Shown here: positions 24,793 through 28,911 of the stretch, piece after piece
How the letters are laid out: each line of letters opens with the position of its first letter
Position numbering within the stretch: the stretch's first letter is position 1
Assembly: GCA_026705445.1 (NCBI GenBank)
Contig: JAPPAR010000019.1
Coordinates: forward strand, 124,001 to 188,000
DNA: 64,000 nucleotides
Origin: Candidatus Dadabacteria bacterium
GTDB lineage: Bacteria > Desulfobacterota_D > UBA1144 > Nemesobacterales > Nemesobacteraceae
Reading direction: 5' to 3'
The notes under the pieces: generated by a model
Databases searched by the model: none
Told to the model about the DNA's origin: nothing
The model's input: the letters and a program-made list of their open reading frames with translations, nothing else
Program-made: the position numbers and the translations under genes

Positions 24793-25557
24793 TTAAGTTT
24801 TCTGGTCCCAGCTTGCTATCCTGACTCCTCGTATAATCAGGGCCGTTGCGGTATATGACAGGATGATGATCGGTCCGGCGGGCATATCAAACGCTATGGC
24901 CAAGGCAATACCGGAGAGAACCGCCGCCACTCCGCAGAGCCATGCAATAAGGTATGGCCGTTTGACTTTTACCGCGGCCAAAGCCGGGAGTATAAGGCTT
25001 GCGAAGACTACGTAAACGCCGACCAGTTGAACCGATGAAGTGATGGCGAGAGCGAAGATCAGATAAAATCCTATATTGTTTCGCACCTCTGGCTTGGAAA
25101 ACCAAGCCAGCAGTATCAACGCGTAAATGGGCGCGTGTTTCGCTACATCTGTCCATGTCACAAACAGCATCTGTCCTGAAAGCAGATGCTTTACCTCCTC
25201 TCCGCCGTGGGGATGATCGGCCAGCAGCAGCAGCGCCAGCGATGCGGCAAGTACGAAAGTGCACCCTATGATCGCCTCCTGTCGCTCTGGCATGGCAGTT
25301 TCCACCTTGCGGAAAAACAGCCCTGCTACGACCGCGCAGCCAAGCGCTATCAGCTGGATCAGCCAAATAGAAGGATCATGGATAAACATATTGCCGACCA
25401 CAAGCCCGAGACCCGCAATCTGCGCCACGGCAAGATCAATAAAGATGATCCCGCGGCGGAGCACTTCAATGCCCAGGGGAGCGTGGGTGAGCGCAATCAT
25501 GAGGCCGGCAGCCATTGCCGGCCCGATGATTTCCAGAAGTTCACCGCTTAACATCAT
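24793..25557 (-). CDS. ABC-3 family metal permease (ZnuB-like)
   Basis: Membrane subunit of a zinc/manganese-type ABC importer (254 residues, about eight helices). Family features are APLGIEVLRRGIIFIDLAVAQ near residue 27, the central LLSGQMLFVTW and LVGVYVVFASLILPALAA. It overlaps the end of the binding-protein gene by 17 bases, so the two are coupled. No ATPase gene is adjacent; the importer must borrow one from elsewhere, or it has been lost. Confidence 0.9.
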   Translation of the reverse strand: MMLSGELLEIIGPAMAAGLMIALTHAPLGIEVLRRGIIFIDLAVAQIAGLGLVVGNMFIHDPSIWLIQLIALGCAVVAGLFFRKVETAMPERQEAIIGCTFVLAASLALLLLADHPHGGEEVKHLLSGQMLFVTWTDVAKHAPIYALILLAWFSKPEVRNNIGFYLIFALAITSSVQLVGVYVVFASLILPALAAVKVKRPYLIAWLCGVAAVLSGIALAIAFDMPAGPIIILSYTATALIIRGVRIASWDQKT

Positions 25558-26476
25558 GTGTTTCTTTCAGCAAAGCTATAGTATTTTCAAACAGCGCGAA
25601 CAGATCGCCGCTCTGCTCATTGCCGCCAATGGTGTAAGGAAGCACGATTGCCCTTGTCCCGGTTTTCTCCGACAGCCACTTACTCGCGCCATCCGGATCG
25701 TAAGGAGTACGGATAATCACGTCCGCCGGGCTTTTCCTTAGTTGCAGCAGCAGATTCTTCAGGTGAGAAGTTGTCGGCGGAATGCCGGGTTTCGGTTCAA
25801 GTGTTCCAACTTGTTTCATTTCTAGCCAGTCAATCAGATAAGTAAACGATTTGTGATGAAACACGACCGGTTTTCCTTTAAGCGCGGCAGCCTCGGATTC
25901 CCATCGGGAAATCGCAGCACTGAAACGCGACGAAAAATCCCGGTAATTATACTTATAGAAAGAGGCGTTTTCAGGGTCTATCTCCGAAAGCCGCTCAGCG
26001 AGAGTCTCACCCACTATGATCAGGTTGTAAGGATTCAGGTGCACGTGGGGATTGCCTTCCGGATGTATGTCTCCCATACTGCGGTCGACCACGACCGGGA
26101 CCTCAAGCATTGTAACGAGCTGTGACGCCATGATGTAGCCGACAGAACCGGGCTGGAGGTCGGAGCTTGTTTTCTTAAGCAGAATCGGAAGCCAGCCTAT
26201 CTCAAGGCTTGCGCCCGAGCAGAGCAGCAGATCGGCTTTGCGCACTTTTGATATCAGGCTTGGGCGCGCCCGTATGTAGTGCGGATTCTGCATGGCCGAG
26301 GTAGCCGAAAATGCTTCCACCTTGTCACCGCCTACTTCCTGGGCCAGAGCCGCCCATTCCGGTTCGCAGGTAAATACTTTTAATTTCTCCTGGTCAGAAG
26401 CGGCGAAAGCCGGGATGTGAGAAAACGCCAAGACAGTAAAAAACGCGGTTATGACCGCGAAACGTAATGTATTCAT
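25541..26476 (-). CDS. Metal ABC transporter substrate-binding protein (ZnuA-like)
   Basis: Periplasmic cluster A-I binding protein for Zn2+ or Mn2+. A signal peptide is cleaved after AFA (about residue 25). Likely metal ligands are in GNPHVHLNP (about 170), VVFHHKSFTYL (about 235) and EPKPGIPPTTSHL (about 257). It lacks the His-rich loop usual in ZnuA. ATG 26476 is chosen over an upstream codon because ggagg lies 6-10 bases before it. The first 30 residues are nearly identical (two differences) to those of the porin-like protein at 27015-28484. Confidence 0.9.
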   Translation of the reverse strand: MNTLRFAVITAFFTVLAFSHIPAFAASDQEKLKVFTCEPEWAALAQEVGGDKVEAFSATSAMQNPHYIRARPSLISKVRKADLLLCSGASLEIGWLPILLKKTSSDLQPGSVGYIMASQLVTMLEVPVVVDRSMGDIHPEGNPHVHLNPYNLIIVGETLAERLSEIDPENASFYKYNYRDFSSRFSAAISRWESEAAALKGKPVVFHHKSFTYLIDWLEMKQVGTLEPKPGIPPTTSHLKNLLLQLRKSPADVIIRTPYDPDGASKWLSEKTGTRAIVLPYTIGGNEQSGDLFALFENTIALLKETHDVKR

Positions 26477-26552
26477 TTTTTCCTCCTTAAGTTTGAAAGT
26501 AAAACTCAACTGCCCGCACGTATGTACGGGAAATAAAAAGTCTGTTTACAAC

Positions 26553-26837
26553 TCAGGATGGGGTGGGAGGTCCGCGGGTAATTCCCGCTTCGCGAGAATC
26601 CCGGACGACGATAATGTCAGCGGATGGCTGCTGTACGCACTGTGCGCGGTAGGCAATACGGATTTCACCAGCGGCGACGGGATCTGTATAGTCCTGATAC
26701 TTGGCGTTTATGCATATCTCGCATTGATCTCCCTCATGCTTGTGCTCCCGGGAACTGCACTCGGCCGCATGGGCAAAGGAGAGGATCTGCGCCCCCAGAA
26801 AGGCAATTGTAAGCAATAGGGAATGTGTTCTGCGCAT
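26553..26837 (-). CDS. Small exported His/Cys protein, copy 1
   Basis: 94 residues with a signal peptide ending near AHA. The short mature protein has EHKHEGDQCEICINA, giving a HxHx4CxxC metal-site candidate (H32, H34, C39, C42), with an extra Cys at 27. Reminiscent of DUF2946-type exported metal-related proteins, but I cannot assign it firmly. It starts 8 bases below the operator, without a Shine-Dalgarno. It is followed after 76 bases by the binding-protein gene. Compared with copy 2 it stops earlier (TGA where copy 2 has CGA). Confidence 0.68.
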   Translation of the reverse strand: MRRTHSLLLTIAFLGAQILSFAHAAECSSREHKHEGDQCEICINAKYQDYTDPVAAGEIRIAYRAQCVQQPSADIIVVRDSREAGITRGPPTPS

Positions 26838-26844
26838 CTGCATT

Positions 26845-26871
26845 ATTAAATGAGAAACATTATCATTTAGC
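26845..26871 (-). promoter_or_regulatory. Fur/Zur-type operator, copy 1
   Basis: A 27-bp near-palindrome aligned with the better-matched copy at 28853-28879. Core on the minus strand: TGATAATGTTTCTCA, close to the 7-1-7 Fur-family pattern (TGATAAT-N-ATTATCA). It covers the region from the -10 box to about +17 of the predicted promoter, the classical place for a metal-dependent repressor. Zur is the likeliest regulator given the genes controlled; Fur or Mur cannot be excluded. Confidence 0.65.
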
Positions 26872-26898
26872 CTATCATACGAAAAAGTACAGTGTCAA
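26869..26898 (-). promoter_or_regulatory. Promoter of the metal-uptake operon, copy 1
   Basis: On the minus strand TTGACA (26893-26898), 18 bases, then TAGGCT (26869-26874). The -35 is perfect and conserved at the identical place in copy 2. The weak -10 merges into the operator. Confidence 0.5.
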
Positions 26899-27014
26899 TA
26901 TGCTGCAACTGGGGCCGTCAGTTTCCCTCAAAGAAACCTGCCGGGGCCACGAAAAGCAGCCCCGGCAGGAGGAAGGAGAGAAAAGTCAGCCAATGTTTCC
27001 TGTCACAGTTGCCC

Positions 27015-28484
27015 TCAATATTTATGCGCGGCGTGTGCACCTATGGCCATTATGTACTGGAGCAGGAACTGATTGTCGCTCAGATCCTCTCCCAGTTTTT
27101 CGTGGTTGTACTGAAGGCGAATACGCGAGAACTCGCTGTTTGACCAGTCGCCCATGACAGCCACGGTGTAGGGATCGTGGTCTATCCCCGAATCCTCGGG
27201 AGAGTACAGCTGGGAATAGCGGGCGCCGATTCTCCATTTCGGCGAAAACTTGAAAACACCCTGTGCGTACCATCCGCTGCTTCCCCCGTCGAGGTGCTCT
27301 GTTTCTTCCTCAAGGGTGTATTCACCCTCTTCGTCGCGCCAGAAATACTCACCCTGGAGGAGAACCTCTTTCTGGCGGTTGTTTCCGGTGGGTGCCCAGA
27401 CGTAGCGAAAATCAACCACGTAAAGCCTTGTGTCGCCCGTGAACATGCCGGCACTGAAGAACTCCCCGTGCTCGTCTTCGTGTCCGTGCTCATCTTCGTG
27501 TCCATGCTCGTCTTCGTCTCCGTGTTCGTCGTGTTCTTCCTCATGATCATCATGGCCGTTTTCAGCATGTTCGTCTCCATGCTCATCTCCATGTCCGTGT
27601 CCGTGACCACCGCCGCGACCGCTTGCCTCTCCGTCAAGCAGGTAGCCCCCGATTCTCCAGGATGAATTTCCTCCTATATCACCGCCTATCCGCATAAAGG
27701 CGCTGAACGAGTTTATGTCGTTGCCATCAGCTCCCCCAAACGGGAAATCGTCTCCGCGAAAAACACCGCCTCCCGCCTCGACATAGAAGTCGGTCGGAAG
27801 CACGTATGAAATCTCCGCTCCGGTATCATTAAAGGACTTGTCGAGAAACACCCTGTAAGGCAGGGGGCGGTCGGCAAAGTCATCTCCGTGGGCGTGATGC
27901 TCGTTCATGTATCCCAGAGTCCAGAACGCACGGCCTATCCTTATGGTTGCCCCGGTCGGAAGCCCGGAACCCGGAAGGGTCTCCACGTATGCCTCCTCAA
28001 GCTCAATCTCGACCCCGTCTCCATGGTCTGCAAGGGCGGTGGTTATGTGGCCGTAGAATTTATCGTCGACGCTTGTCGAAACATTAAGTTCGGTTTCTCC
28101 AAGAGAGATTCCTTCCGCCCCGCGTTCTCCCTCGTGTCCCAGGACGAATCCGGGAATTTCTCCTTCATCAGAAGAGAACGCGGCGAAGCGTCCGCCCAGT
28201 ATTGCTCCTATTGAGGGGTTAAGGTTGCTGTTGTAGATGGCTCTGCCCGGATAGGCCTTGTCCTTGCTCTTTGAGTAGGTCGTTTTCGCCTGAGATGCTT
28301 CAGTTCTCATCTCGACGAGTTTTTCTTCCATCTTTAAAATCCGGTTCTCGTATTCCGATTTCATGGCCTTTATCTCCTCTCTTAGGGCCTCTATCTCCTG
28401 ATCGGAAGCGGCAAAAGCCGGGACGTGAGAAAACGCCAAGACGGCAAAAAACGCGGTTATGACCGCGAAACGTAATGTATTCAT
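27015..28484 (-). CDS. Porin-like outer-membrane protein with histidine-rich loop
   Basis: 489 residues: a signal peptide (1-25) shared with the metal-binding protein, then a short coiled coil (about 28-58, EIEALREEIKAMKSEYENR), then a long beta-rich region with alternating polar/aromatic strands and a terminal strand ending in HKY. Residues about 291-340 are a dense His/Asp/Glu tract (repeats of DEHGHE) that would form an extracellular or periplasmic loop able to collect metal ions. No Cys in the mature part. I infer an outer-membrane channel for zinc or a similar metal, controlled by the same operator as the ABC importer. The exact porin family is not recognised. Confidence 0.7.
   Translation of the reverse strand: MNTLRFAVITAFFAVLAFSHVPAFAASDQEIEALREEIKAMKSEYENRILKMEEKLVEMRTEASQAKTTYSKSKDKAYPGRAIYNSNLNPSIGAILGGRFAAFSSDEGEIPGFVLGHEGERGAEGISLGETELNVSTSVDDKFYGHITTALADHGDGVEIELEEAYVETLPGSGLPTGATIRIGRAFWTLGYMNEHHAHGDDFADRPLPYRVFLDKSFNDTGAEISYVLPTDFYVEAGGGVFRGDDFPFGGADGNDINSFSAFMRIGGDIGGNSSWRIGGYLLDGEASGRGGGHGHGHGDEHGDEHAENGHDDHEEEHDEHGDEDEHGHEDEHGHEDEHGEFFSAGMFTGDTRLYVVDFRYVWAPTGNNRQKEVLLQGEYFWRDEEGEYTLEEETEHLDGGSSGWYAQGVFKFSPKWRIGARYSQLYSPEDSGIDHDPYTVAVMGDWSNSEFSRIRLQYNHEKLGEDLSDNQFLLQYIMAIGAHAAHKY
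27465..27612 (-). repeat. His/Glu/Asp codon repeat within the porin-like gene
   Basis: Imperfect tandem repeats with an 18-base unit encoding DEHGHE, plus diverged flanking units (GHGHGHGDEHGDEH). About 150 bases and 50 residues. The repeat structure makes the loop length prone to change by slippage. Confidence 0.82.
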
Positions 28485-28494
28485 TTTTTCCTCC

Positions 28495-28845
28495 TTAAGT
28501 TTGAAAAGAAAATTCTGCTGCCCGCATGTATGTGCGGGGAATGAAAAGTCTGTTTGCAGCTCGGGAGGAGGTGGGAGGTCCGCGGGTAATTCCCGCTTCA
28601 CAGGTGTCCAGAACGACTATAAAGTCAGCGGGTGGCTGCGGGATGTGCTGTGTGCGGTGGGTAACACGGAGTTCTCTGGTGGCGCCGGGGTCTGTGTAGT
28701 CCTGGTACTTGGCGTTTATGCATATTTCGCATTCAGTTCCCTCATGCTTGTGCTCCTGCGAACCGTATTCGGCCGCGTGGGCAGTGGAGAGTATCTGCAC
28801 TCCAAAAAAGGCTGTTGTCAGCAGTAAGAAAAGTGTTTTGCGCAT
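28495..28845 (-). CDS. Small exported His/Cys protein, copy 2
   Basis: 116 residues. A signal peptide, then EHKHEGTECEICINA with the same HxHx4CxxC arrangement (H32, H34, C39, C42) and the shared KYQDYTDP. Roughly two thirds of the first 94 residues match copy 1 by eye. It then reads on for 22 residues because the copy 1 stop is a sense codon here. It ends 10 bases before the porin-like gene start, so its stop overlaps that gene's Shine-Dalgarno region. A role as a periplasmic metal carrier or sensor is inference. Confidence 0.68.
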   Translation of the reverse strand: MRKTLFLLLTTAFFGVQILSTAHAAEYGSQEHKHEGTECEICINAKYQDYTDPGATRELRVTHRTQHIPQPPADFIVVLDTCEAGITRGPPTSSRAANRLFIPRTYMRAAEFSFQT

Positions 28846-28852
28846 TCGATAA

Positions 28853-28879
28853 GTTAAATGAGAAATATTTTCATTTAAC
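28853..28879 (-). promoter_or_regulatory. Fur/Zur-type operator, copy 2
   Basis: 27-bp palindrome with 11 of 13 base pairs matching around a single central base. The outer arms are GTTAAATGA and TCATTTAAC. It spans the -10 box and the first transcribed bases of the small-gene/porin operon. The length and arms are in line with Zur/Fur operators. Confidence 0.7.
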
Positions 28880-28906
28880 TTACCACGCATCAAAGCTCCG
28901 TGTCAA
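28877..28906 (-). promoter_or_regulatory. Promoter of the porin-like operon, copy 2
   Basis: On the minus strand TTGACA (28901-28906), 18 bases, then TAAGTT (28877-28882), overlapping the operator. It has the same geometry as copy 1. Confidence 0.5.
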
Positions 28907-28911
28907 CATAT

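Follow-up and report, generated by a model that had tools for sequence, protein, structure and literature searches.

Probable duplication of an operon head, with a signal-peptide swap onto znuA, in a predicted zinc-uptake locus of Candidatus Dadabacteria

Zur-regulated importers of the ZnuABC type are the closest described systems to the locus analysed here. Listed members of the Zur regulon include rpmB and the porin gene oprD (PMC6103462), and in a Caulobacter Zur study DUF2946 proteins were among the genes lowered in a zur mutant (PMC4176598). Gene conversion between duplicated genes is described, in the available parts of the two reports, for the PE_PGRS pair of tubercle bacilli (PMC1762029) and for the HMA4 metal-pump cluster of Arabidopsis halleri (PMC3749932). 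Our locus lies in a 64-kb stretch of DNA (the window) from a 1.78-Mb Candidatus Dadabacteria MAG of 48 contigs. The window's genome is called G000, all genomes compared with it are MAGs, and isolate names suggest that they come from sponge-type samples. All window features are given on the minus strand.

The first-pass annotation of the window had proposed that a promoter-operator-small gene-signal peptide cassette is present twice, before an ABC binding protein and a porin-like protein. This duplication is real: segments 28394-28911 and 26386-26903 are 82% identical over 516 bp (E=1.4e-145, whole-genome DNA search), and the same search finds these two copies only, with no third copy. In the minus-strand pairwise alignment the homology runs from just upstream of the -35 box (28906 and 26898) to 28394 and 26386, and comprises, in this order, the -35 box, the operator, the small gene, the Shine-Dalgarno sequence and the signal peptide. 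It ends five residues past the predicted signal peptide, inside the mature regions as claimed, and does not continue through the full genes: identity in 50-bp windows is 0.72-0.96 within the repeat and falls to the background level of 0.42-0.50 outside it. The two leaders indeed differ at two residues only (A/T and V/I), and convergence between signal peptides is excluded because identity extends beyond their codons, the small genes being about 80% identical. The order of the landmarks is the same in both copies, as had been stated, but their offsets are nearly equal rather than identical (start-to-start spacing 2008), with 1-2 bp indels near the promoter and near the small-gene start. The promoter regions of the two G000 cassettes are only 60% alike.

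Promoter 1, on the porin side, consists of a TTGACA -35 hexamer (28901..28906) and a candidate -10 box TAAGTT (28877-28882, spacing 18); promoter 2, placed by alignment of cassette copies, consists of TTGACA (26893..26898) and a candidate TAGGCT (26869-26874, spacing 18). The alignment comprises 22 copies from 14 genomes; the hexamer is present in most of them and varies in few (e.g. G009_2, G005_1). Operator 1, the near-palindrome AAATGAAAATATTTCTCATTT, a predicted Zur box, lies at 28856..28876, and operator 2, AAATGATAATGTTTCTCATTT, at 26848..26868. The porin-side small gene (28495..28845, 116 aa) encodes a signal peptide, H-x-H, CEIC and GITRGPP; its znuA-side counterpart encodes 96 aa (26553..26843). 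The former has lost the usual stop, which the first-pass annotation missed, and ends at a TAA overlapping the Shine-Dalgarno region, which makes it about 20 C-terminal residues longer than its relatives; copy 2 of G011 has a similar extension. Members of this family are exported, have about 95 residues and, in 14 aligned members from the genus and the outgroups, share an invariant H, CxxC and RxPP. Profile comparison between the Dadabacteria proteins and those of the outgroups is weak, and their presumed homology rests on position and on this invariant pattern. The same pattern of His, CxxC and C-terminal RxPP is found in DUF2946 (PF11162), which some proteobacterial relatives match weakly (E 0.0012-0.17), below the curated cut-off of 23.7 (best score 20.0 bits, in L196); none of the small genes of Dadabacteria, including those of the window, has a Pfam match to DUF2946. 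The cassette signal peptide contains a candidate for another attenuator (CGCGGTCATAACCGCG-TTTTTT), which was rejected because its folding does not exceed that of synonymous recodings (p 0.1-0.5).

The two genes fronted by the cassettes are those that had been proposed, an outer-membrane barrel protein with a predicted porin fold and a ZnuA-type binding protein. The first (27015..28484, 489 aa) begins with the signal peptide and first residues MNTLRFAVITAFFAVLAFSHVPAFA-ASDQE (28394..28484), where the pairwise homology ends. It has no family match in Pfam or NCBIfam, and is called a porin from its predicted beta barrel and its matches to PDB folds: the structure prediction (mean pLDDT 77) is a beta barrel with an N-terminal coiled coil, and Foldseek matches it to OmpT, OprP, OprO, VhChiP and DcaP with E values of 1e-12 to 1e-9. 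A sequence search against solved structures gave chiefly chance matches to coiled coils. A loop rich in His, Asp and Glu (27480-27620) consists of short repeats, varies in length among congeners and is modelled with low confidence. The second protein (25541..26476, 311 aa) matches PF01297 above the cut-off (E=9.2e-39). In the alignment its first codons (26386..26476) read as a porin-derived signal peptide joined to mature ZnuA, MNTLRFAVITAFFTVLAFSHIPAFA-ASDQE followed by KLKVFTCEPEW. The end of znuA is overlapped by the gene of an ABC-3 family, ZnuB-like permease (24793..25557; PF00950, E=1.6e-17, 64.3 bits for a cut-off of 20.1).

The porin is carried by 13 other genomes of the genus. Five of these (G001, G004, G005, G007 and G008) have a single cassette, before the porin, with znuA 30-90 bp after the porin and bearing its own signal peptide. 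The order small gene-porin-znuA is also that of the outgroup families of the same order, with gaps of 20-27 bp where both ends are readable. A search with the porin alignment yielded 70 further loci, mostly proteobacterial (L143-L212); the small gene is usually upstream of the porin, and znuA is matched in 69 of them, the contig of the remaining one (L212) stopping soon after the porin. The partnership of porin and znuA therefore predates the duplication. The second cassette, between porin and znuA, is found in G000, G002, G003, G006, G009, G010, G011 and G012, and in the contig L141 (JAAXHL010000045.1). This contig is labelled Candidatus Poribacteria and is probably misbinned, because its two-cassette operon is 87% identical to that of the Dadabacteria genus.

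Between the porin stop and promoter 2 lies a second feature missed by the first-pass annotation, a relic of znuA (about 26921-27001) that corresponds to its original start, now AGG in G000, and its original signal peptide, KHWLTFLSFLLPGLLFVAPA. It was recognized by alignment with the live znuA starts of G001, G005, G007 and G008 and with eight other relics; it follows the porin stop in all eight two-cassette genomes, as well as in G013, where the contig stops after it. The relic has a stop at codon 4 in G006, G009 and G013 and is frameshifted in G003 and G011, while in G002, G010 and G012 a frame remains open from ATG or GTG and may encode a short peptide. In G006 and G009 it extends about 19 codons (about 57 bp) into mature ZnuA (AKVKVFACKPKW..AQE) before giving way to the DNA that leads to promoter 2, and the live znuA after the cassette repeats this same stretch. 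The presence of mature-znuA sequence on both sides of the insert matches the prediction of a tandem duplication followed by a deletion. At the fusion point, AASDQE of the porin is joined to K(V/L)KVF of ZnuA.

These features are very probably explained by a duplication of the operon head, with loss of the second porin, a swap of signal peptides and later conversion between the copies. The ancestor would have been a zinc operon with one promoter, in which promoter and operator precede the small exported CxxC protein, the porin, znuA and znuB. A tandem duplication would have spanned from upstream of the promoter to about codon 40 of znuA; deletion of the second porin would then have fused porin codons 1 to about 30 in frame with mature ZnuA, the order of these two steps being the one we infer. 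Two units with matching operators would result, one made of the cassette and the porin, the other of the cassette, znuA with the porin signal peptide, and znuB. The second unit is presumably transcribed independently, and the old 5' end of znuA would persist after the porin as the relic, with its hairpin kept, probably because the porin transcript ends there. Gene conversion would hold the cassettes alike.

The idea that the cassette was copied separately before two unrelated genes, which thereby came under shared control, accounts for the sharp end of the homology just past the signal peptide in genes that otherwise have nothing in common. It is nevertheless highly improbable: porin and znuA were already operon neighbours, as seen in the single-cassette congeners, the outgroups and the 70 loci, both the relic and the overlap at the junction indicate that the event took place locally, within the operon, and the genome has no third copy. 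For the same reasons independent capture of the cassette by the two genes was ruled out. A single-step insertion of the 0.5-kb head into the junction between znuA signal peptide and mature region, for example by template switching during replication, would give the same final structure in one event and would swap the signal peptide at a functional boundary; we consider it improbable too, as the 57 bp or so of mature znuA that flank the insert on both sides in G006 and G009 require an added target duplication. An ancestral two-cassette state conflicts with the relic and with every outgroup. We thus retain duplication of the operon head followed by deletion, and this changes the meaning given at first to the repeat. 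The two genes are not export proteins newly placed under shared control, since they already formed one operon behind one cassette; the duplication therefore split a co-regulated operon into two units and built no new uptake route. Nor is the shuffling in progress: the event is old, common to at least eight congeners, and what continues is conversion between the copies.

Several observations argue for such exchange. In the part comprising the Shine-Dalgarno sequence and the signal peptide, mean identity among the 22 copies is 93.5% within genomes and about 91% between them. Patchy similarity is stronger evidence: the longest identical runs exceed those of permutations (p<0.01) in G000, G002, G009, G010 and G012, that is, five of eight genomes. 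At 28 diagnostic sites, the copies are pure in G006 and G009 and block mosaics in G000, G002, G003, G010 and G012. Copy 1 of G000 falls within the copy-2 clade (98/96); monophyly of copy 2 is not, however, rejected by the AU test (p=0.062), so that the run test and the mosaics carry the case for conversion. From these alignments we conclude that the cassettes have exchanged patches by gene conversion and still do.

In the porin and znuB trees one branch (99/98 and 100/100) sets the two-cassette operons apart from the others, consistent with a single origin of the two-cassette state; in the znuA tree the same group lies on one side of a branch with 92/96 only, and rooting on the long-branched G004 is unsure. 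The species tree, built from rpoB, a fused Mo/Fe-S oxidoreductase (best NCBIfam matches: menaquinone reductase QrcB/QrcC) and trpS, nests the single-cassette G001 among two-cassette species, whereas the porin and znuB trees separate the operon types. In G001, G007 and G008, about 5.3 kb separates the single-cassette operon from a second operator, which is of the Fur-gene type. At the trpS site of G005 and G008, broken pieces of a znu operon are found (L071, G005:C50; L072, G008:C1), the whole single-cassette operon being elsewhere. Exchange of the operon between lineages best explains the tree conflict, the proximity to the operator and the remnants at trpS. The operon was probably acquired from outside the order: identity of the window porin reaches 49% with relatives outside it but is 26-28% with members of the order, and the window ZnuA is 42-55% identical to relatives outside, the porin-linked ZnuA proteins within the order giving 36-43%.

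The relic contains a GC-rich, terminator-like hairpin, CCTGCCGGGGC-TGCTTTTCGTG-GCCCCGGCAGG followed by TTTCTTT (26937..26969), with 14 pairs of which 11 are GC. A perfect-stem scan ranks it as the strongest hairpin of the 64 kb; its folding z is -4.1 in the window and ranges from -3.9 to -7.4 across relics. It does not behave as a dispersed repeat: the window has a single match, and no retrieved locus has more than one. Four genomes with a live znuA signal peptide (G001, G005, G007 and G008) have the same hairpin in the corresponding codons, and its stability there far exceeds that of synonymous recodings (p=0.0002-0.0014); in G004 the live codons do not exceed recoding (p=0.07). In the ancestral one-promoter operon it perhaps damped znuA relative to the porin. 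In its present position it is best read as a putative terminator between two separately promoted units, and tentatively we see in it discarded signal-peptide codons exapted to this role, the hairpin now separating two Zur units. A literature search on terminator exaptation found nothing relevant. Rather unlikely, in our estimate, is that the hairpin was not selected as a terminator, and that it consists of GC-rich signal-peptide codons that persist by chance or that encode a short secreted peptide. The open frames of G002, G010 and G012 would fit with this, as would the imperfect T tract of several genomes. The tract is TATTTTTT in G002, G003 and G012 and TATTCCTT in G006 and G009, and it is interrupted in G000 (TTTCTTT), where termination may therefore be weak. 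Yet the frame is lost in the other relics by a stop, a frameshift or a missing start, the stem is 97% conserved compared with 70% and 67% for its flanks and 77% for the loop, and the G011 relic has an inverted loop with an intact stem, a change that spoils a peptide but not a hairpin.

The 21-bp operator, with at most two mismatches, is nearly confined to znu sites and, in 13 of the 14 genomes, one further site each, controls being near 0. In G000, where the gene content of this further site was read (L126:3960-5331), it lies at G000:C11:142459-142479, before a FUR-family gene (E=9.6e-29), a MerC-like gene (merC) and the L28 gene rpmB, which encodes a single cysteine; this locus is likely to be a zur operon. 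The znu operon of the sister genus (G014) has a FUR-family ORF of similar type directly upstream. The operator is most likely a Zur box, because it is also present upstream of a FUR-family gene linked to rpmB, an arrangement that recalls the described Zur regulon. Zur control fits with this, and is likely for both znu units; with Zur probably at both operators, zinc shortage should therefore turn on both. Zinc is the presumed substrate, from the protein family and the predicted Zur operator.

No ATPase gene (znuC) adjoins znuAB in the window or in 66 related loci, these being the members of L143-L212, mostly from Proteobacteria, with both znuA and znuB. In the 47 loci of that set with wide flanks there is no ABC ATPase nearby, and remote matches are few. 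A znuC hidden elsewhere in the genome was also sought, and the best matches belong to other ABC clusters, the best of all to a separate metal ABC cluster (L127, G000:C25) in which genes for an ATPase, a binding protein and two ABC-3-like permeases are followed by a regulator-like ORF. It is possible that this cluster lends the missing ATPase.

The locus would show legibly how a local rearrangement can supply a gene inside an operon with a separate promoter and a different export signal; living relatives still preserve the ancestral arrangement, the scar and the subsequent gene conversion. The swap suggests that porin and binding-protein signal peptides are interchangeable in this lineage, and the relic hairpin offers a way to test if codons for a signal peptide can also serve as a transcription terminator and, in time, turn into one.

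Like the Zur-regulated ZnuABC importers, the window locus has a PF01297 binding protein, an ABC-3 permease and a predicted Zur operator. It differs from them in that the operon has no adjoining ATPase and opens with a small CxxC protein and a porin-fold protein, in that the His-rich loop is absent from ZnuA and present in the porin, and in that the operon head is duplicated. The porin resembles OprP/OprO, OmpT, VhChiP and DcaP by its predicted barrel and significant Foldseek matches, but is only 10-14% identical to them, shares no sequence family with them and has in addition the N-terminal coiled coil and the His/Asp/Glu-rich loop. In PE_PGRS and HMA4, as far as the parts of those reports drawn on here describe them, neighbouring duplicates are likewise homogenized or exchanging, and HMA4 is also a metal-transport locus; the converted unit here, in contrast, is a regulatory head and signal peptide common to two different genes.
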